Shown in pieces: positions 44,001 through 64,000 of a stretch of 64,000 bases of DNA; position 1 is the first letter of the stretch; every line of letters begins with the position of its first letter. The stretch spans positions 62,001 to 126,000 of the forward strand of contig QWII01000003.1 of assembly GCA_021405325.1 (NCBI GenBank), in the 5' to 3' direction. The stretch is from Caldilinea sp. CFX5 (lineage in GTDB: Bacteria > Chloroflexota > Anaerolineae > Caldilineales > Caldilineaceae). The notes beneath the pieces were generated by a model. The model did no database searches, was not told the DNA's origin, and saw nothing but the letters and a program-made list of their open reading frames with translations. The position numbers were made by a program, and so were the translations under genes.

Positions 44001-44074
44001 TGAAAATAACAGGGATTCCGCAGATTCCACAGATTTCTCTCAGGTTTTCATCTGCGGAATCCCTGTTATTTTCA
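44001..44074. repeat. 25-bp-stem inverted-repeat element, paired with 54253-54335
   Basis: The arms 44001-44025 and 44050-44074 are perfectly complementary (TGAAAATAACAGGGATTCCG is the first part). It is homologous to the element at 54253-54335. At two arm positions the copies differ (T/C and C/T) and the change is present in both arms of each, so pairing is kept. Similarity continues about 20 bases outside the stem (GTGC.CCACAGCC). The last three bases are the stop codon of the phosphoribosyltransferase/hydrolase gene. Confidence 0.85.
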
Positions 44075-45538
44075 GGGTGGGGTATCCTCGCCCTGAATCG
44101 TTACGTTCCTGCCTTCGCTGACCATTGCCGGCGTGCCGGTTGTCGTGGGCGCTGCCGTAAAGGAACGGCAGAACCAGTCGCGCGCCAACTGGGCCACGGC
44201 GGCAAGCGTACCGGGTTCTTCAAAGAGATGGCCGGCGCCCGGTATAATCTCCAACTTGGCCCGGCTGCCCAGGTGCGCCAATGCTTCTTGGTTCAGCGCA
44301 ATTACCGGGTGGTCAGCCCCACCGACCAGCAGAAGCGTGGGCGCTTTGACTTGGGCCAATACCGGTAACGCCAGATCCGGGCGACCGCCCCGCGCGACGA
44401 CGGCCGCAACCACATCGGCCCGTTGGGCGGCGGCAATCAGCGCCGCGGCGGCGCCCGTGCTGGCGCCGAAATAGCCAATGGGGCAGTGCTGGGTCTGTGG
44501 TTGCGCTGCCACCCAATCGGTGGTTGCGACCAGTCGCTCGGCGAGCAGCGCAATGTTAAAGCGCAACTGGCGGGTGTCGAGATCGATGCGCTCTTCCCCG
44601 GGCGTGAGGAGATCAAAGAGCAGGGTCGCCAGACCGCCTTCCTGTAAGGTTTGGGCGACAAAGCGATTGCGTGGGCTAAAGCGACTGCTGCCGCTGCCAT
44701 GCGCAAAGAGAACAAGCCCTTGGGCGTTGGGTGGAATCACGAGATCGCCCGCCAGGGTCACGGCGCCGGCCGCGATCTGAACCGGCCAGCTTTGAATGGG
44801 TTGTTTCGCGGAGGTCGCCATCGTCTTCTCCTTTTCTGCTTGATGGTAGTCGGCTGCCGCCTGCGCCAGCAAGCTACGCACCTCCTCATCGCTCGTGGCG
44901 CCAAAATCGGCAAACCAGAGACCGACCGCCCAGAAGGGCTCCGGTTGCAACAGACAGACGACTTCATCCACCTCCTGTTCTAACGCGGTACAAGTCTCCG
45001 GCGGCGCCACGCCCACGGCGACAATCAGTTTGGCCGGTCGTTGGCTGTGCAAGGCGGCGATGGCGGCGCGTATCGTTGCACCGGTGGCCACGCCGTCATC
45101 GACCAGGATCACCGTTTTGCCGCGCACGACTAGTGGCGGCCGTTCCCCGCGATAGAGCCGTTCCCGGCGCGCCAATTCCTGTTGTTCTTGGGCAACAACG
45201 GCGTCGATCATTTCCTCATCAATGTCCAGACTCCAGACCACATCGTCATTGAGGACGCGTGTCCCGCCGGAGGCAATGGCGCCCAAGGCCAATTCCGGTT
45301 GCCCCGGTGCACCCAGTTTGCGCACGACAAAAACATCCAGCGGCGCCTGGAGGGCTTGGGCAATGGCATAGGCCACCGGCACGCCGCCGCGTGGCAAGCC
45401 CAAAACCAAGACATCGGAGCGCCCGGCATAAGCGGTCAGTTGTTCGGCCAACAACTGGCCGGCTTCCGTCCGGTCGCGCAACCGGCGTTGCCGGCTATCA
45501 CGTAACGGCTGAAAGAACATATCATATAGGCCCTGCAT
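44072..45538 (-). CDS. Phosphoribosyltransferase / alpha-beta hydrolase fusion
   Basis: A 488-residue fusion. Residues 1 to about 215 are a type I phosphoribosyltransferase with the PRPP loop VILVDDGVATGATIRAAI. Residues about 240-465 are a dienelactone-hydrolase-like alpha/beta hydrolase: LFAHGSGSSRF, nucleophile elbow GYFGASTGAAAAL (Ser), Asp in LLVGGADHPV and His in IPGAGHLFEEP. The fusion is known from other bacteria with no firm substrate. The ATG at 45538 follows AAAGGAGCG. Its last residues and stop come from the inverted-repeat element at 44001-44074, so the tail (NVTIQGEDTPP) may be secondary. Confidence 0.88.
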   Translation of the reverse strand: MQGLYDMFFQPLRDSRQRRLRDRTEAGQLLAEQLTAYAGRSDVLVLGLPRGGVPVAYAIAQALQAPLDVFVVRKLGAPGQPELALGAIASGGTRVLNDDVVWSLDIDEEMIDAVVAQEQQELARRERLYRGERPPLVVRGKTVILVDDGVATGATIRAAIAALHSQRPAKLIVAVGVAPPETCTALEQEVDEVVCLLQPEPFWAVGLWFADFGATSDEEVRSLLAQAAADYHQAEKEKTMATSAKQPIQSWPVQIAAGAVTLAGDLVIPPNAQGLVLFAHGSGSSRFSPRNRFVAQTLQEGGLATLLFDLLTPGEERIDLDTRQLRFNIALLAERLVATTDWVAAQPQTQHCPIGYFGASTGAAAALIAAAQRADVVAAVVARGGRPDLALPVLAQVKAPTLLLVGGADHPVIALNQEALAHLGSRAKLEIIPGAGHLFEEPGTLAAVAQLARDWFCRSFTAAPTTTGTPAMVSEGRNVTIQGEDTPP

Positions 45539-45557
45539 GGGTCGCTCCTTTACTTGG

Positions 45558-45875
45558 TTAACCCTTGACGACGTCAAGGGTCTCCAGTTTGCGGGGGGGA
45601 ACCTTGGCCGGTTGATAGCGCTCCCAGCCAAACCGCTGCGCTTTGCGCTTGACCTCCTGATAGGCAATCACCGTGCCGTAATCGCCGACGGCCACGACTT
45701 CATCCTCGGCCTGCCACCCCTCATTATGCTGAATGACAAAATGAAACATCGCCTCCACTTCGTCATTGGGATAATTTTCCAGGGACTTGGCCCAGGGCAA
45801 GCCAAAGTTAAAGGGTAAGGCAATTTGCGATTCTTCGCTTCTACTCTTATTGATGAATTTGTAGTATTGACCCAT
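45558..45875 (-). CDS. Hypothetical protein, 105 aa
   Basis: A soluble, charged protein that I do not recognise (MGQYYKFINKSRSEESQIAL start; GDYGTVIAYQEVKRKAQRFG later). It has no signal peptide, membrane segment or Cys. It lies 19 bp upstream of the phosphoribosyltransferase/hydrolase gene on the same strand, so the two are probably co-transcribed. The ATG follows GGAGGCAA. The region 45876-46074 upstream holds no supported gene. Confidence 0.7.
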   Translation of the reverse strand: MGQYYKFINKSRSEESQIALPFNFGLPWAKSLENYPNDEVEAMFHFVIQHNEGWQAEDEVVAVGDYGTVIAYQEVKRKAQRFGWERYQPAKVPPRKLETLDVVKG

Positions 45876-58028: not shown

Positions 58029-60509
58029 TCAGCGGGCGATGGCCGGCAGATACAGATCCTGCAGTTCCGCAACCACTGTAACCGTCAGTGTGACCGTGTG
58101 GGTGAGGGCGTTGTCGCCGGCCTCGATCACCAACGGATAGGTGGCTGGGAGGCTATCAGGCGCCGCGGCCAGGGTCAACCGCGCTGCTTGCCCCACCAAC
58201 GCCGGATTGGGATCGATGGTCACAGTGAGGGTGCTGGGCGGGTTGATGGCCCGCAACGTTACGGTGCTGCTATAGCCGGCGCGGCTGTGCAGGGTGATCT
58301 GGCCGGTGCGCACGCGAGCCGGCGCCAGCAGCCAGGTGCGCGGTTGAAGCTCCAGGTCAAAGTCCGGCGCCGGCGAGAGCCGCCACAGTTGCTTGTTCGC
58401 CGCCAGCCACGTATGGTTGTGGGCGTCGACTTCCAACCGCTGCACCTGCGTAGCGGCCACGGGCAAAGGCGTACGCGTTACGCCGGCTTCATCCTGGCGA
58501 TTGACCTCGTCGATCCAGCGACCACCGGCTTCAGGCACATAGCGCGACCCAACATACCAGACGGCGCCATCGGGGGCCACCGTCCACAGTCGATTACGAT
58601 GGGGCGCGGCCTGTAGCGCGGCCAGATGCGCGGCAACGACATTGTCAACGGCCTCGGTCGTGTAGCTATTGTCGGGCGCGATTAGCCCGACGACCCCGCC
58701 GGTGCTGTTGCAGCGGTCGTTGGGCGCCTCCAGTACATAGAGCAGACCCGCCTTATCCACCGTCAGATCACAGACGCTCTGCGCAAACTCAAAAAAAGGC
58801 CGCCACTGACCGTCGCGATATTGGTAGAGATTGGCCGAATTGCCATACCAGAGCCGACCTTGGGCATCGACCGCCACAGTTCCCCCGGCATCGATTCCCC
58901 CGGCATCGGTTCCCCCATTCCCCGCGCTGCCATCCTCTGTAGGGGCGAGTGGGTAATCCCGCCAGCGGTCATCGGCGAAATCAGCCGGCGTGCCGTTGTC
59001 ATCGAGCGCCAATACGCCGTGCGTCTGGGGCATACCTGAATAGCCGCGGCTGTAGGCCAGCCAGAGATGGCGCTCATCTTGCGCAAAGATATCGTTGATC
59101 GCGATCTGGGTATCGGCTGCCGGCAACGGAATTTCGAGTACCGCGCCCTGGTGGTCGCGGCGCAGGGTGGGGCTGTAATGCCAGCCAAAGCGCCACAAAT
59201 AGCCCCAGGCCGACAGCAGATCACCGCCCGGTGTGCGTTCCCACGCTACTACCACTGGGTATTCGTAAGCCGGCCTGCTCCACACATCGTCCGCCAACGG
59301 CACACTGCCTTGGTCGTTCATCGTTTGGAGTGCGCCTGCACTGTAAGGAAATTTATCATAACTATTCAACCAGAGGACGCCATCGCGGTCGACCAGGATG
59401 TCGGCAATGGTCGGATAGGCCACCGTGTCGGCGAAATCATGGAGCGCGCCATCCGCTGTACGCAGCCAGCCCGGGCCGATGGCCGTGATGCCCCCGGCGT
59501 CGGCCAGCAAGGCGGTCACCGGCGGCAGGCGGTTGAGTGCAATGGGCCTTGGGGTTGGCTCAACTTTGGCAATGGCGGCGACGAAATTGGCGTAGGGAAA
59601 GTCGCGCGATGTCAGGCCAAGCCAAACGCCATCGTCGGGCGCAATGGCAAAAGTGGTCAGATCGCCGCCAAACAGGAGGTAGCGCCAGAGATCAAGTGGT
59701 GTCCAGCCATCATGCGTCCACTGGTACAACTGGTGGGTATTGTAATCATTTCTGGCCAGCGCCCAGACGTTGCCTGCACGATCGGTGCGCAGCCGGTCGG
59801 GTTGCGGCTGGACCCCGGCGGGCGCGCGGTCGAGCCACTGGCTACCGGTGTAGATCAGGAAGTCCACCCACACCTCGCCGTTGACCACTGTCCAGAGCGG
59901 GTTCGGCATTGGCGTCTGCACAAGGCGCGCGTAGTCGCTCGCCACCGCCACGGCGCGGTTCGGAAACCAGGTCCAACTGCCGTCCGGGTTGCGGCGGCTA
60001 ACGCGGCCGGCGGGCAGCCCGTGGCTGAGCCACAGCGTATTGTCCGCGCCCACGGCAATGCCATCCACCAACGTTTGGTGGAGACCGCTGTTGGCCGGGG
60101 TAAAGTGTGTCCAGGCGCCCGTCGCATCCAGCCGGCTGAGGCCACCGTCCCCGCCGAACCAGCGGTTGCCGGCGCCATCGACGGCCGCGGCCAACACCAC
60201 CCTGTGGGGTAGGCGATCCACGACTGTGTAACGCCGGTACGTCCCTTGTGCCTTATCCCAGCGCACAACACCGCCGGTCGCGCCGATCCAGAGGGCGGGG
60301 CCGTCGTCGGCCAGGGCATACTGGGGTGCGCCCCAGGTGGTCCAAAGTGGATTCGTGGGCAGTTGGCTGGCCGTGGCCGGCGCTACCGGCCGGTCAGTCA
60401 GTGGCGGCTCATCCGCCAGCACCGCCGGCTGGCGCCAACGTGCGCCGGCCAGCAGCAGACCAACGACCAACAGGAGCGTGATGGTAACGCGCAACGGGTG
60501 AGCTTGCAT
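58029..60509 (-). CDS. Secreted beta-propeller protein (two-component-sensor-like repeats)
   Basis: An 826-residue exported protein. Residues 1-32 are a signal peptide. From about residue 55 to 690 there are repeated blades with the W(I/F)G..GGL.R.D pattern (ALWIGATGGVVRWDKAQG, NRWFGGDGGLSRLDATGAWT, TLWLSHGLPAGRV), like the periplasmic propellers of hybrid sensors. The C-terminal 110 residues are an Ig-like beta domain. The last residues are DLYLPAIAR, an ending often seen on exported Chloroflexota proteins. A Gly-Gly-(T/I)-Asp-Ala repeat lies near residue 545. No kinase domain or membrane anchor. Confidence 0.85.
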   Translation of the reverse strand: MQAHPLRVTITLLLVVGLLLAGARWRQPAVLADEPPLTDRPVAPATASQLPTNPLWTTWGAPQYALADDGPALWIGATGGVVRWDKAQGTYRRYTVVDRLPHRVVLAAAVDGAGNRWFGGDGGLSRLDATGAWTHFTPANSGLHQTLVDGIAVGADNTLWLSHGLPAGRVSRRNPDGSWTWFPNRAVAVASDYARLVQTPMPNPLWTVVNGEVWVDFLIYTGSQWLDRAPAGVQPQPDRLRTDRAGNVWALARNDYNTHQLYQWTHDGWTPLDLWRYLLFGGDLTTFAIAPDDGVWLGLTSRDFPYANFVAAIAKVEPTPRPIALNRLPPVTALLADAGGITAIGPGWLRTADGALHDFADTVAYPTIADILVDRDGVLWLNSYDKFPYSAGALQTMNDQGSVPLADDVWSRPAYEYPVVVAWERTPGGDLLSAWGYLWRFGWHYSPTLRRDHQGAVLEIPLPAADTQIAINDIFAQDERHLWLAYSRGYSGMPQTHGVLALDDNGTPADFADDRWRDYPLAPTEDGSAGNGGTDAGGIDAGGTVAVDAQGRLWYGNSANLYQYRDGQWRPFFEFAQSVCDLTVDKAGLLYVLEAPNDRCNSTGGVVGLIAPDNSYTTEAVDNVVAAHLAALQAAPHRNRLWTVAPDGAVWYVGSRYVPEAGGRWIDEVNRQDEAGVTRTPLPVAATQVQRLEVDAHNHTWLAANKQLWRLSPAPDFDLELQPRTWLLAPARVRTGQITLHSRAGYSSTVTLRAINPPSTLTVTIDPNPALVGQAARLTLAAAPDSLPATYPLVIEAGDNALTHTVTLTVTVVAELQDLYLPAIAR

Positions 60510-60772: not shown

Positions 60773-62023
60773 CTATTTTTCCGGCGACTGCTGTAATTGA
60801 TAGATCAGGCGCTCCGAGTTCATGTCGAATTCGTTATCTCTCGTCATATCGAGCATCAGATTAGCGCGTATGCCAAGCCTTGGTGTGCATTCCTGACGAA
60901 TGGCCGCCAAGAAGCGATACTGACCTTTCTCCAGCCCCAAGTGTTGCGCCAATACGCCTTCGAGTTCAGTGAAGTTGCTCTCGAGATAGGTTGGCGAAAG
61001 GATGGCGAGGGTGTACCGGCTTTCCAAAACTGCACGCTCCATCTCTAGCACCAGCGGACGACCGAGACGGAAGCACTTGTAGTCGATGCAGACGCGCAGG
61101 CCATTAGCCTCCAATCGAGGAACTAGTGTATTCCGCACCCAACTCTTGTCTGGCTCTTGATGTCGATAGCTGAGGAATACGTCATATACGTAGCTGTCCG
61201 ACAGAGGCGCTACAGCGGGTATTGGCGCTTTGCCACCCAAATAGAGTGCGACGGGGAAATTCTCTTCAACTTCAGCCTTGAAGATGGGATGTTGGTTCGG
61301 CTGATCGGCAGTGACTCTGGGCTGCAGGTAGTTGAAAAGATCGAAAATACGGATGACACCACCGGAGCTGATTGCGCCACCGCGTAGACCTGTCAACAGG
61401 TGCTGTGTGAAAAGACTATTTTCCGCACCGGGCATCACATACGAATATTCTGTGCTACGCGACGATGCCAGGATCACTCGCCCGCGGCCCTCTGCGAGTT
61501 TTGCAAAATAGCTTTCGGATAGCCCCGTCTTGAACTCAAGCTCGACAGGATCCTTGGTCTGACCAATGCCGCCGGCATGGCAGCAATCGAAGACCACGAC
61601 CATTTTGCGGGCGGGAATACGCCGCAGTGCTTCGGTCATTTCTTGACTAGAGATGGCTGTCTCTGCCACCAATCGGGGCGGTGTGCTAGAGAAGTCCAGT
61701 TTTGCATCGACTGGTAAGATGTACTCACCAGCATCTGCTCCAGATTCGATACGCCCGCCATGACAAGAGAGGTAAAGTAGCACACTAGAGTCTACTGTGG
61801 TCTGCTGGGCTAACTCGTTCAGCTTGTTCCTTATCGCAGCCTGGCTTGCATCTGTGTCCAGCAGCGTAAACGTATTGTCGGGCGAATACCCACATAACTG
61901 TTCGTCTACCAGCACATTGCGTATTTTCTCAACATCCTTCAAAACCGCAGGTGGGAGTCCACGGACGTTTTGGTAGTTCGCGATTCCGACGAGTAAGGCG
62001 TAGCCGTTATTGATGCTTATCAT
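60773..62023 (-). CDS. Caspase-like peptidase (C14) with C-terminal TIR domain
   Basis: A 416-residue protein. Residues 1 to about 245 are a caspase-fold domain: ALLVGIANYQNVRGLPPAVL, catalytic His in LYLSCHGGRIE and Cys in VVVFDCCHAGGIG. Residues about 275-410 are a TIR domain: YVYDVFLSYRHQEPDKSWVR, LRVCIDYKCFRLGRP and LSPTYLESNFTELEGVL, keeping the Glu used by NAD-cleaving TIRs. The ATG at 62023 follows AAGGATTG and is 8 bp after the lipoprotein stop, so the two are one operon. Caspase plus TIR is a known bacterial defence/signalling architecture; activity here is inferred. Confidence 0.9.
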   Translation of the reverse strand: MISINNGYALLVGIANYQNVRGLPPAVLKDVEKIRNVLVDEQLCGYSPDNTFTLLDTDASQAAIRNKLNELAQQTTVDSSVLLYLSCHGGRIESGADAGEYILPVDAKLDFSSTPPRLVAETAISSQEMTEALRRIPARKMVVVFDCCHAGGIGQTKDPVELEFKTGLSESYFAKLAEGRGRVILASSRSTEYSYVMPGAENSLFTQHLLTGLRGGAISSGGVIRIFDLFNYLQPRVTADQPNQHPIFKAEVEENFPVALYLGGKAPIPAVAPLSDSYVYDVFLSYRHQEPDKSWVRNTLVPRLEANGLRVCIDYKCFRLGRPLVLEMERAVLESRYTLAILSPTYLESNFTELEGVLAQHLGLEKGQYRFLAAIRQECTPRLGIRANLMLDMTRDNEFDMNSERLIYQLQQSPEK

Positions 62024-62031
62024 AACAATCC

Positions 62032-63705
62032 TTATTGGCACGTCCATCGCGTGTCAGTGTCACGCCACGAACCAAAAATATTATATTTGTTTTGTTGAGT
62101 GCTAAGGCCAAGACCTTTGACTTGGGTTCCAAAATAGTTTTTGGTCTGAGTGCTGCCCTTCAGCCAGTACACCACGCCATCGCTGTCAGCGGCGCTCTGC
62201 TGTTGTGTGGTGGTTTTGCTATCGATGTAGATATCCCGGTACGTACAGGTGACTGGCGGAGGAACTGTAGAGTACTTGATATACGAGAGCCTTTGATTTA
62301 CTGCATTCCCCGTCACACTAACGCCGGTTTTGACCGAAGTCTCCAAGCGCCAATAGTAGAAATGCTTGACGCCGCCAGCTACGGTAGGATCGATCACAAA
62401 AAACACGACATAGTTGTCACTGGCGCTGCGTGGTGGATCCATCCATTCAATACTTATGGCTAGATTCTCAGGATCAGCATAGAGAAAATGTAGGAAACCA
62501 TCGGTAATCGGCTCTTCAGCCAACGAAGGGAGCTCACCCTTGGCATCGTACTCGGCGACCCACTGCAGAAACTCCTCAAACCCGATTTTCTGCTTGGAGG
62601 CGAGTTGGGCTGCCGCGCGCGGATCGGTTGCGGCCTGGAGCAAGAGCGCAAAAGCTGTTGGCGAATTGTAAAGCTCGGAGTAAAGGATGATTGTCTCTTG
62701 GAGTAAATTCTTAGGGGGGATGATGACGCTCTTTATGATCTCTGACTGTACAAAGTCTTTGACGGCAGGTAAGAAATCATCTGGGCTATACCCAAACCCT
62801 TGCTCCCACCTCCATGTGAGCCATTGGGCAATGCTGGGCCTGACGCCTTTAGTCTCTATGTATTCAGTGTGGCTGCTTATAAGATCATCAATCGATAACC
62901 CCAATTGTTCAGACAGTACATTGACCAGGATGACAGCCGAAGGGATCGCCGCAATGTCTTCAAAGGTCTCGAAAACATCCTCTGCGAAGATTGCCTGCTG
63001 ATAGGTTGTTTCGGTGTTTCTGAACAACGCTTCTGCTTCTTCGTTAGTCAATTGACCGTTAGCATTGGCTTCAGTGATTTGTGCTTTTACCATGTCAAGC
63101 GCCGTGCTATAGAATGTTTGTACATCCCAGTTGATTTCCTGCAGCAGGTTTTCCAATGTTGGAACCCGATTATTGTAGGCAGCCATATATGTGACCCTCT
63201 GTCTACGGAACGTAGAGAAGCTATTGAGTGGTGTGTTTTCCAAGAGTGTGTTGTACAAAATAGGGTAGAGCGGAATGGACGCAAATTCCTCACCAGTAGA
63301 CTGAATCGCTTCAAAACAGACTTGGGCGGCTCTTAGATAATTCTCTCCAGCATCCTTTGCAAAGCTGAGGACTTCGAGACGAAAGCGGTGACCATCTTCA
63401 TTGGTATATTCGACAATAGCCACGGTTGCTCCTGGAAACACATCCGATGGGCTTACCTCGATTGTCTGCGACTCAAGCGGAGTGAGGGTAGGCTGTCTTG
63501 GATCACAGCGCGAAGGTTGCACTCCGGTGAAGGTGAATGGTGTGTCGGAAGCAGGTGGCGCCTCATTCGCGTCTGCGGCTGGAGCAGCAGCTTGTTCGTC
63601 GGCCGGCGCAGCCGCCGGTTGGCCTGCTGGAGCACATGCGGCAAACAGAATGACGACAAGCAGAACAATGAGCGATTTTTCTGCAAAGCATCTTTGGCGT
63701 TTCAT
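62032..63705 (-). CDS. Large lipoprotein of unknown function
   Basis: A 557-residue exported lipoprotein: LIVLLVVILFAACAPAGQPA gives a lipobox with Cys near residue 24, then an Ala/Pro/Glu-rich disordered linker to about 55. The rest is a helical and then beta-rich domain (FRRQRVTYMAAYNNRVPTLE in the helical part; a C-terminal YWLKGSTQTKNYFGTQVKGL with single Trp-Cys end). I do not recognise the family. The ATG at 63705 follows a perfect TAAGGAGGT. It is in an operon with the caspase-TIR gene and probably acts as a surface sensor or anchor for that system. Confidence 0.85.
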   Translation of the reverse strand: MKRQRCFAEKSLIVLLVVILFAACAPAGQPAAAPADEQAAAPAADANEAPPASDTPFTFTGVQPSRCDPRQPTLTPLESQTIEVSPSDVFPGATVAIVEYTNEDGHRFRLEVLSFAKDAGENYLRAAQVCFEAIQSTGEEFASIPLYPILYNTLLENTPLNSFSTFRRQRVTYMAAYNNRVPTLENLLQEINWDVQTFYSTALDMVKAQITEANANGQLTNEEAEALFRNTETTYQQAIFAEDVFETFEDIAAIPSAVILVNVLSEQLGLSIDDLISSHTEYIETKGVRPSIAQWLTWRWEQGFGYSPDDFLPAVKDFVQSEIIKSVIIPPKNLLQETIILYSELYNSPTAFALLLQAATDPRAAAQLASKQKIGFEEFLQWVAEYDAKGELPSLAEEPITDGFLHFLYADPENLAISIEWMDPPRSASDNYVVFFVIDPTVAGGVKHFYYWRLETSVKTGVSVTGNAVNQRLSYIKYSTVPPPVTCTYRDIYIDSKTTTQQQSAADSDGVVYWLKGSTQTKNYFGTQVKGLGLSTQQNKYNIFGSWRDTDTRWTCQ

Positions 63706-63837
63706 AGAATACCTCCTTAGATTTTGTACACTTTGCATGTACTGGTGCAAGCTTGGGGTGCAACGCGCGCACCGTACACTTTTTGTTCAACAAAACACGC
63801 CAGCGAATTTGTCATAGCGCGATAGGTGCGTTGCCCG

Positions 63838-64000
63838 TTACTGAGCGCAACGAAACCCAAGATCTGGGCTACGGTCGTCCGGTGACCATGGAGCAGATCG
63901 GGTTGCGATTGCGGGATCGGCGCGTTCCATTTCACTCGTCGCCAAATAACTAAGATACGAATAGCCGCGCTGATAGAGGGTGGACACCTTGACGATCCCA
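63838..64000 (-). CDS. SUMF1/formylglycine-generating-enzyme-like protein, C-terminal part
   Basis: The last 53 or so codons of a gene that enters from the right edge and ends in TAA at 63838-63840. The tail ATRSAPWSPDDRSPDLGFRC matches the closing 'R....p......GFRCa' of FGE-sulfatase/SUMF1 domains, which in bacteria often sit next to, or are fused with, caspase or NACHT modules. It lies 132 bp upstream of the lipoprotein and on the same strand. Only the end is visible, so the full architecture and start are unknown. Confidence 0.7.
   Translation of the reverse strand, partial: GIVKVSTLYQRGYSYLSYLATSEMERADPAIATRSAPWSPDDRSPDLGFRCAQ

Follow-up and report, generated by a model that had tools for sequence, protein, structure and literature searches.

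The animal apoptosome is built from APAF1, a CARD-NBARC-WD40 protein, and a CARD-caspase; the TIR domains of Toll-like receptors (TLRs) act as scaffolds; and in the TIR-caspase type of Thoeris, separate TIR and caspase-like proteins are linked by a nucleotide signal. In the parts of Kaur et al. (eLife 2021, PMC8195603) that deal with nSTAND1-FGS proteins, TIR and caspase are named among the N-terminal domains of such proteins, and an adaptor (EAD) is duplicated on the NTPase and on the effector; operons of bDLD3-caspase and AP-ATPase, as well as the preference of STAND-FGS conflict systems for multicellular bacteria, are also described there. Neighbouring ground is covered in parts of a 2020 forerunner (PMC7159879), of a study of hypermutated sensors (PNAS 2024, PMC10907252) and of work on cyanobacterial retroelements (PMC7517822), and the relevant part of a 2012 census in PLoS One (PMC3501461) links TIR, WD40, FGE-sulfatase and NACHT to bacterial metacaspases. 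Here, we analyze a 64,000-nucleotide stretch of Caldilinea sp. CFX5 (contig QWII01000003.1, positions 62,001 to 126,000; hereafter the window), at the right end of which a gene for a caspase fused to a TIR domain (caspase-TIR) follows a predicted lipoprotein gene and an FGE/SUMF1-like gene end. On balance, we think it probable that these three genes form a single operon encoding a conflict system with a membrane receptor and a caspase. The genes concerned, with positions in the window, are as follows.

60773..62023, minus strand: caspase-TIR, 416 residues; C14 domain with His88 and Cys147-Cys148, TIR with Glu355 (Pfam and family alignment)
62024..62031, minus strand: 8-bp gap from the lipoprotein stop to the caspase-TIR ATG; AAGGA overlaps the stop
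62032..63705, minus strand: predicted lipoprotein, 557 residues; lipobox behind a hydrophobic N-terminus; faint C-terminal resemblance to the slot proteins described below
63706..63837, minus strand: 132-bp gap from the FGE-like end to the lipoprotein ATG; AAGGAGGT precedes the lipoprotein start
63838..63999, minus strand: likely FGE/SUMF1-like C-terminal 53 residues (custom profile); the gene is cut by the window edge

Linkage of caspase-TIR genes with TIR-nSTAND1 genes

The main evidence comes from the neighbourhoods of related genes. In a scan of genome contigs, 80 of 137 caspase relatives were kept, comprising 34 caspase-TIR loci (individual loci are denoted by L numbers) and 46 controls, mostly from other phyla, in which the caspase match stays essentially outside TIR. 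Of the 34 caspase-TIR loci, 25 have a TIR-nSTAND1 gene no more than 5 kb away (24 within 2 kb), compared with none of the controls, and no control carries a TIR on the caspase gene itself. If L029 and L033, whose caspase gene lacks the TIR, are set aside, the counts become 23 and 22 of 32, respectively. Besides, a TIR-FGE gene is found 93 bp from the caspase-TIR in L011, TIR genes with BNR/sortilin-like ends 4.2-4.7 kb away in L014, L024 and L027, and a TIR-nSTAND1 gene 6.5 kb away in L018. Five further loci with wide flanks were also inspected (L120-L124, of which L123 is cut by a contig end); a TIR-nSTAND1 gene adjoins the caspase-TIR in L124, and a TIR gene with a transmembrane (TM)-like helix lies near it in L120. 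An earlier note on this DNA, made from the sequence alone, had proposed a signalling or defence locus with the caspase-TIR as effector. Such an assignment is supported at the level of sequence; the recurrent partner itself, a TIR-nSTAND1 protein, had been overlooked in that note.

The caspase-TIR itself belongs to a strongly conserved family of about 412 residues. A search of 5.8 billion proteins, with 7997 candidates scored, yielded 1324 relatives with an E value of 1e-3 or below. The best 120 of these share 57 to 89% identity with the window protein; 113 are 405-425 residues long, and 119 contain both the caspase and the TIR models according to precomputed Pfam matches (the other, P0058, is a fragment without the caspase). 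The mean column identity over 29 rows picked from these 120 is 72%. In the window protein, Peptidase_C14 covers residues 15-263 (Pfam E 5.5e-19; 69.2 bits vs. a cut-off of 21.4) and TIR_2 residues 290-414 (E 1.1e-17), both numbered in a 424-residue reading. As the earlier note had read from the letters, His and Cys of the caspase and Glu of the TIR are present, and both the Pfam matches and the alignment bear this out: His88, Cys147 and Cys148 occur in 119 of 119 aligned proteins, and Glu355, at the NADase position, in 118. This alignment consists of the window protein and 118 of the best 120 matches, two being dropped as outside 395-480 residues. Caspase genes of this family in L029 and L033 stop before the TIR, truncated or frameshifted, yet adjoin a TIR-nSTAND1 gene. 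Phage records contain no match at E 1e-20, and seven plasmids match at 1e-40, in one case across most of the length of the caspase-TIR.

In a tree without L026, L029, L032 and L033, which are short or broken, the window protein clusters with the metagenome proteins P0003-P0006; consequently, the tree is uninformative on the sensor type of the window. The three sensor labels require five changes on it.

The retained Glu would suit signalling within one protein, in the manner of the TIR-caspase type of Thoeris: the TIR would produce a signal from NAD that switches on the caspase, and the neighbouring gene would only regulate it. However, Glu355 aligns with the Glu of TLR TIRs, which are the best PDB matches of the caspase-TIR; judged by this alignment, Glu at the NADase position is not diagnostic of an NADase, since TLR TIRs carry it too. 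Moreover, C14 and TIR are the only domains that Pfam finds in the chain; a nucleotide sensor, for example, is not among them. The partner TIRs also indicate an assembly role, since none of 23 receptor TIRs carries Glu at this position (I, V, T, A, L, F or S is found instead), and the receptor TIR is therefore probably a scaffold as far as residue patterns can tell. Signalling within one protein thus appears improbable to us, and recruitment by a receptor is preferred, with the TIR of the caspase-TIR possibly active as an NADase.

The distances of receptor and caspase-TIR co-vary over 20 pairs (Mantel r 0.68, 0 of 5000 permutations), and the identity between cognate TIRs is 32.4% vs. 30.3% for non-cognate ones (1 of 5000 permutations, 20 pairs). 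L029 and L033 are excluded from both tests.

Architecture of the TIR-nSTAND1 partners

According to Pfam, WD40-type propellers follow nSTAND1 in 13 loci (L001, L002, L003, L008, L009, L010, L012, L013, L016, L017, L019, L020 and L031) and FGE in six (L007, L015, L021, L025, L028 and L034), and the partner in L005 ends in a GUN4-like region that scores under the cut-off. A hydropathy scan detected a TM-like helix just past nSTAND1 in 22 of 26 linked partners; in 20 of these, the lysine and arginine residues ahead of the helix outnumber those behind it, the other two being ties. Among the partners without a helix in the scan, those of L018 and L033 end right after nSTAND1, that of L023 has a 132-residue tail, and the helix of L012 was missed as a second profile match shifted the domain end, and was seen in a separate look. 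The TIR-nSTAND1 partners are thus probably membrane receptors of positive-inside orientation, with the WD40 or FGE sensor mostly behind one predicted TM helix.

Some other arrangements should be mentioned. L023 has two tandem TIR-nSTAND1 genes after the caspase-TIR, both short at the C-terminus. TIR proteins in L014, L024, L027, L012 and L120 contain a single TM-like helix, and their C-terminal region is BNR/sortilin-like or unassigned, a layout resembling that of TLRs. In L014, L024 and L027, such a TIR gene is followed by a gene for a protein of about 1000-1190 residues, then by one for an exported-looking protein and then by the caspase-TIR gene. The large protein matches FTP/PepSY weakly in L014 and L027; the exported-looking protein has LysM in L027 and, by eye, in L014.

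The three genes of the window

The genes of the window, their order and their spacing were read directly from the DNA. In the 5' to 3' direction of the minus strand, the FGE-like end is followed by the lipoprotein gene and the caspase-TIR gene, with the 132-bp and 8-bp spacings that the earlier note had given and that the coordinates confirm. The caspase-TIR likely starts at the ATG at 62023; an alternative upstream ATG at 62047 overlaps the lipoprotein stop. The AAGGA that overlaps this stop suggests translational coupling between the lipoprotein and the caspase-TIR. No terminator-like or promoter-like site is listed within the 132-bp gap, and from the absence of a terminator-like site together with the AAGGA a single transcript of all three genes is likely. 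PADLOC gave partial matches only on the window.

The FGE-like end comprises 53 codons and a stop and terminates in DDRSPDLGFRCAQ. Its 53 residues have no match in Pfam (PF03781 included) or in PDB sequences. When 2652 C-termini are ranked by a profile of seven proteins with FGE from related loci, the fragment comes 9th, and its score is reached by 1 of 2000 shuffles; the eight above it are the seven profile members and L050, a caspase-FGE protein by Pfam. Short as the fragment is, 63838-63999 is likely an FGE-like end, so that the SUMF1/FGE-like C-terminus reported in the earlier note is upheld by the custom profile and not by Pfam.

In L007, L015, L021 and L025, a TIR-nSTAND1-FGE gene, an extra gene and the caspase-TIR gene lie on one strand in the order seen in the window. 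By analogy with these four loci, the cut gene probably encodes a TIR-nSTAND1-TM-FGE receptor. It could instead be an ordinary sulfatase-maturation or other FGE gene that happens to stand beside a lipoprotein gene, with the caspase-TIR an unrelated neighbour, given that just 53 residues without a Pfam match are at hand and the N-terminal part lies beyond the window edge. Yet a TIR-nSTAND1-FGE gene adjoins the caspase-TIR in six loci, and both order and close spacing match in four, which makes such a coincidence quite improbable. The same six loci weaken the possibility, considered in the earlier note, that the SUMF1 gene belongs to an unrelated operon, the window gene itself being cut.

The predicted lipoprotein and the slot between probable receptor and caspase-TIR

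The ATG of the lipoprotein gene lies at 63705, and its stop ends at 62032. The hydrophobic N-terminus is followed by the lipobox-like FAAC, which is VAAC in the sole homologue, P0002 (by hydropathy and by eye); with signal peptide and lipobox both present, the 557-residue protein is a predicted lipoprotein. No Pfam family scores above the cut-off. P0002, with 60% identity, lies on a contig of 2760 bases; the scan of genome contigs gave no relative, with 14 pattern matches only, and 400 Chloroflexota genomes gave 15 weak short matches in 14 genomes, all inside model positions 1-120. Orthology was consequently dropped as a route to the function of the lipoprotein. The structure model (mean pLDDT, the predicted local distance difference test, 37.5, from two sequences) is unusable. 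The G+C content of the gene is 0.497 vs. 0.577 for the window, and 3.2% of 1.6-kb windows are equally low; a recent acquisition of the gene is possible.

The extra genes of the four loci above occupy the position, here termed the slot, that the lipoprotein gene occupies in the window. The slot proteins are 101-269 residues long. Those of L015 and L007 are related via another relative, encoded right behind the receptor in L028 and detected among 7943 open reading frames (E 6e-4) with a profile that had been built without it; that of L025 is a weaker relative, and that of L021 is unlike the others. The family counts eight proteins in the database, with a jelly roll at the C-terminus in a structure model. 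In the two Thiothrix loci L021 (4209-5024) and L025 (3824-4657), a gene of 271-277 codons directly upstream of the TIR-nSTAND1-FGE gene looks caspase-like by eye.

The receptor/caspase-TIR pair could be genuine and the lipoprotein an unrelated passenger between them. The near absence of homologues and the low G+C content are in keeping with this, as is the comparison of the lipoprotein with the slot proteins by hhalign, which is not significant (probability 1.4-1.5%, E 0.035); in addition, the likeness was first spotted by eye, and the profile tests were made after the fact. In those tests, however, a profile of the slot C-domain built without the lipoprotein ranks it 7th and P0002 5th of 2652 (shuffles 1 of 1000 and 0 of 1000, respectively), the corresponding N-domain profile giving ranks 16 and 59. 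The 8-bp spacing, with the ribosome-binding site overlapping the lipoprotein stop, also argues against a passenger, and so do the exported-looking proteins found directly before the caspase-TIR in L014, L024, L027, L120 and L123, which have no match to the lipoprotein. The resemblance to the slot proteins is suggestive and unproven, and a passenger seems rather unlikely, though it deserves serious weight. We consider it likely but unproven that the lipoprotein is an accessory that fills a variable slot and sits on the same side of the membrane as the sensor, which leaves its place on the sensing side, as the earlier note had it, plausible. The recurrent pairing with caspase-TIR genes that the note had named as support was not found, in view of the single homologue; a test by absence of such pairing is hardly applicable, because the lipoprotein is nearly an orphan.

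Elsewhere in the window, an 826-residue protein is encoded at 58029-60509, on the same strand and 263 bp past the caspase-TIR, with a weak Reg_prop propeller repeat and, by eye, a hydrophobic N-terminus. At 44072-45667, a phosphoribosyltransferase is fused to a dienelactone-hydrolase-like part.

Opposing evidence and proposed mechanism

Several observations weigh against one operon of a membrane-receptor/caspase system. Some TIR gene lies within 6 kb in 7 of the 46 control loci, none of them TIR-nSTAND1, and these controls are a weak comparison, being mostly from other phyla. The background within genomes is therefore the better yardstick: 27 genomes of 3.8-10.3 Mb have 7-33 nSTAND1 matches each, weak ones counted, from which chance adjacency is estimated at a few per cent, in favour of the linkage; in the control genomes, some nSTAND1 match occurs in 13 of 14 and exceeds the cut-off in three. 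In four of the 34 loci (L022, L026, L030 and L032, the last three at contig ends), there is no TIR gene besides the caspase-TIR within 7 kb, and of four additional loci with wide flanks, L121 and L122 lack one over 12-18 kb. Restricting the comparison to the 15 pairs from Chloroflexota and cyanobacteria lowers both the co-variation (Mantel r 0.53, 5 of 5000) and the excess of cognate TIR identity (33.4% vs. 32.4%, 92 of 5000), and part of the co-variation may be explained by shared descent. Unlike in the lipoprotein, hydropathy reveals no signal peptide in the slot proteins of L007, L015, L021 and L025. The receptor part of the cut gene lies beyond the window edge, its TIR and NTPase being deduced by analogy. 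Finally, 17 of 19 nSTAND1 proteins from elsewhere in the same genomes (L125-L143; 20 regions, 19 scorable, one of which, L141, has a TIR) also have a TM-like helix after nSTAND1, for which reason the helix was rejected as a mark of the caspase-TIR partner system. On the basis of hydropathy, nSTAND1 proteins in general may be single-pass receptors with sensors outside the cytoplasm.

Conservation, linkage, residue pattern and hydropathy are observed in the relatives; from them we infer the identity of the receptor in the window, its membrane topology, recruitment, activation and outcome along the following lines. A single-pass receptor would hold its TIR and nSTAND1 NTPase inside the cell and, beyond the TM helix, its C-type-lectin-like FGE sensor outside, where the lipoprotein, anchored on the outer face, would serve as a sensor accessory, either capturing the ligand or acting as a co-receptor. 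Recognition would switch the NTPase and oligomerize the receptor, and the clustered, Glu-less receptor TIRs would form a scaffold that recruits the caspase-TIR through TIR-TIR contacts. Crowding would then activate the caspase, which would cleave cell proteins and lead to cell death or stall, and the assembled TIR of the caspase-TIR, with its Glu kept, may also consume NAD+. In a wider sense, the system might unite the topology of TLRs with the logic of the apoptosome, an envelope-sensing dead-TIR receptor recruiting a caspase and exported accessories such as the lipoprotein tuning the outer recognition; we advance this tentatively, as a real possibility that may well prove wrong.

If true, an unusually conserved bacterial caspase effector would gain a membrane-receptor partner, and a TIR-to-caspase recruitment step would be predicted, with TIR as a direct caspase-recruitment domain in bacteria. 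It would also bear on how modules now known from animal innate immunity and apoptosis (TIR, NTPase and caspase) were combined in the past, and suggest that nSTAND1 receptors generally sense the cell exterior.

Comparison with known systems

Among the closest counterparts are the STAND-FGS systems as they appear in the relevant parts of Kaur et al. (PMC8195603), with nSTAND1 or NACHT joined to an FGS sensor, an N-terminal EAD or effector, and a second EAD copy on the effector. The hallmark, an NTPase fused to an FGS sensor, is present in the relatives L007, L015, L021, L025, L028 and L034. A shared adaptor is likewise seen in the relatives, where TIR is on both NTPase and effector; the window shows the effector copy, the NTPase copy being off its edge. 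Unlike in the systems described in those parts, TIR is here the shared domain, the caspase-TIR is a fixed and conserved partner, the receptor TIRs lack Glu, and some loci have an accessory gene; a caspase-TIR paired with a receptor TIR is not described there. As in the bDLD3-caspase/AP-ATPase operons, so far as those parts cover them, and in the apoptosome, a STAND NTPase and a caspase are joined by a shared adaptor, but here the adaptor is TIR rather than a death fold, the NTPase is nSTAND1 rather than AP-ATPase, and the receptor is probably single-pass. With Thoeris, the locus shares TIR and caspase-like domains acting together, whereas here the two stand in one chain, with a TIR receptor in addition, and not in separate proteins. 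The 2012 census (PMC3501461) has the same domains, but no pairing with a TIR receptor was found in the relevant part of it, nor was a caspase-TIR paired with a TIR-nSTAND1 receptor found in open-licence titles and abstract openings, subscription literature being mostly outside this scope. By its predicted domains, therefore, the caspase-TIR/TIR-nSTAND1 pair is a variant of the STAND/FGS conflict systems (Kaur et al., 2021), and a variant that is itself new.

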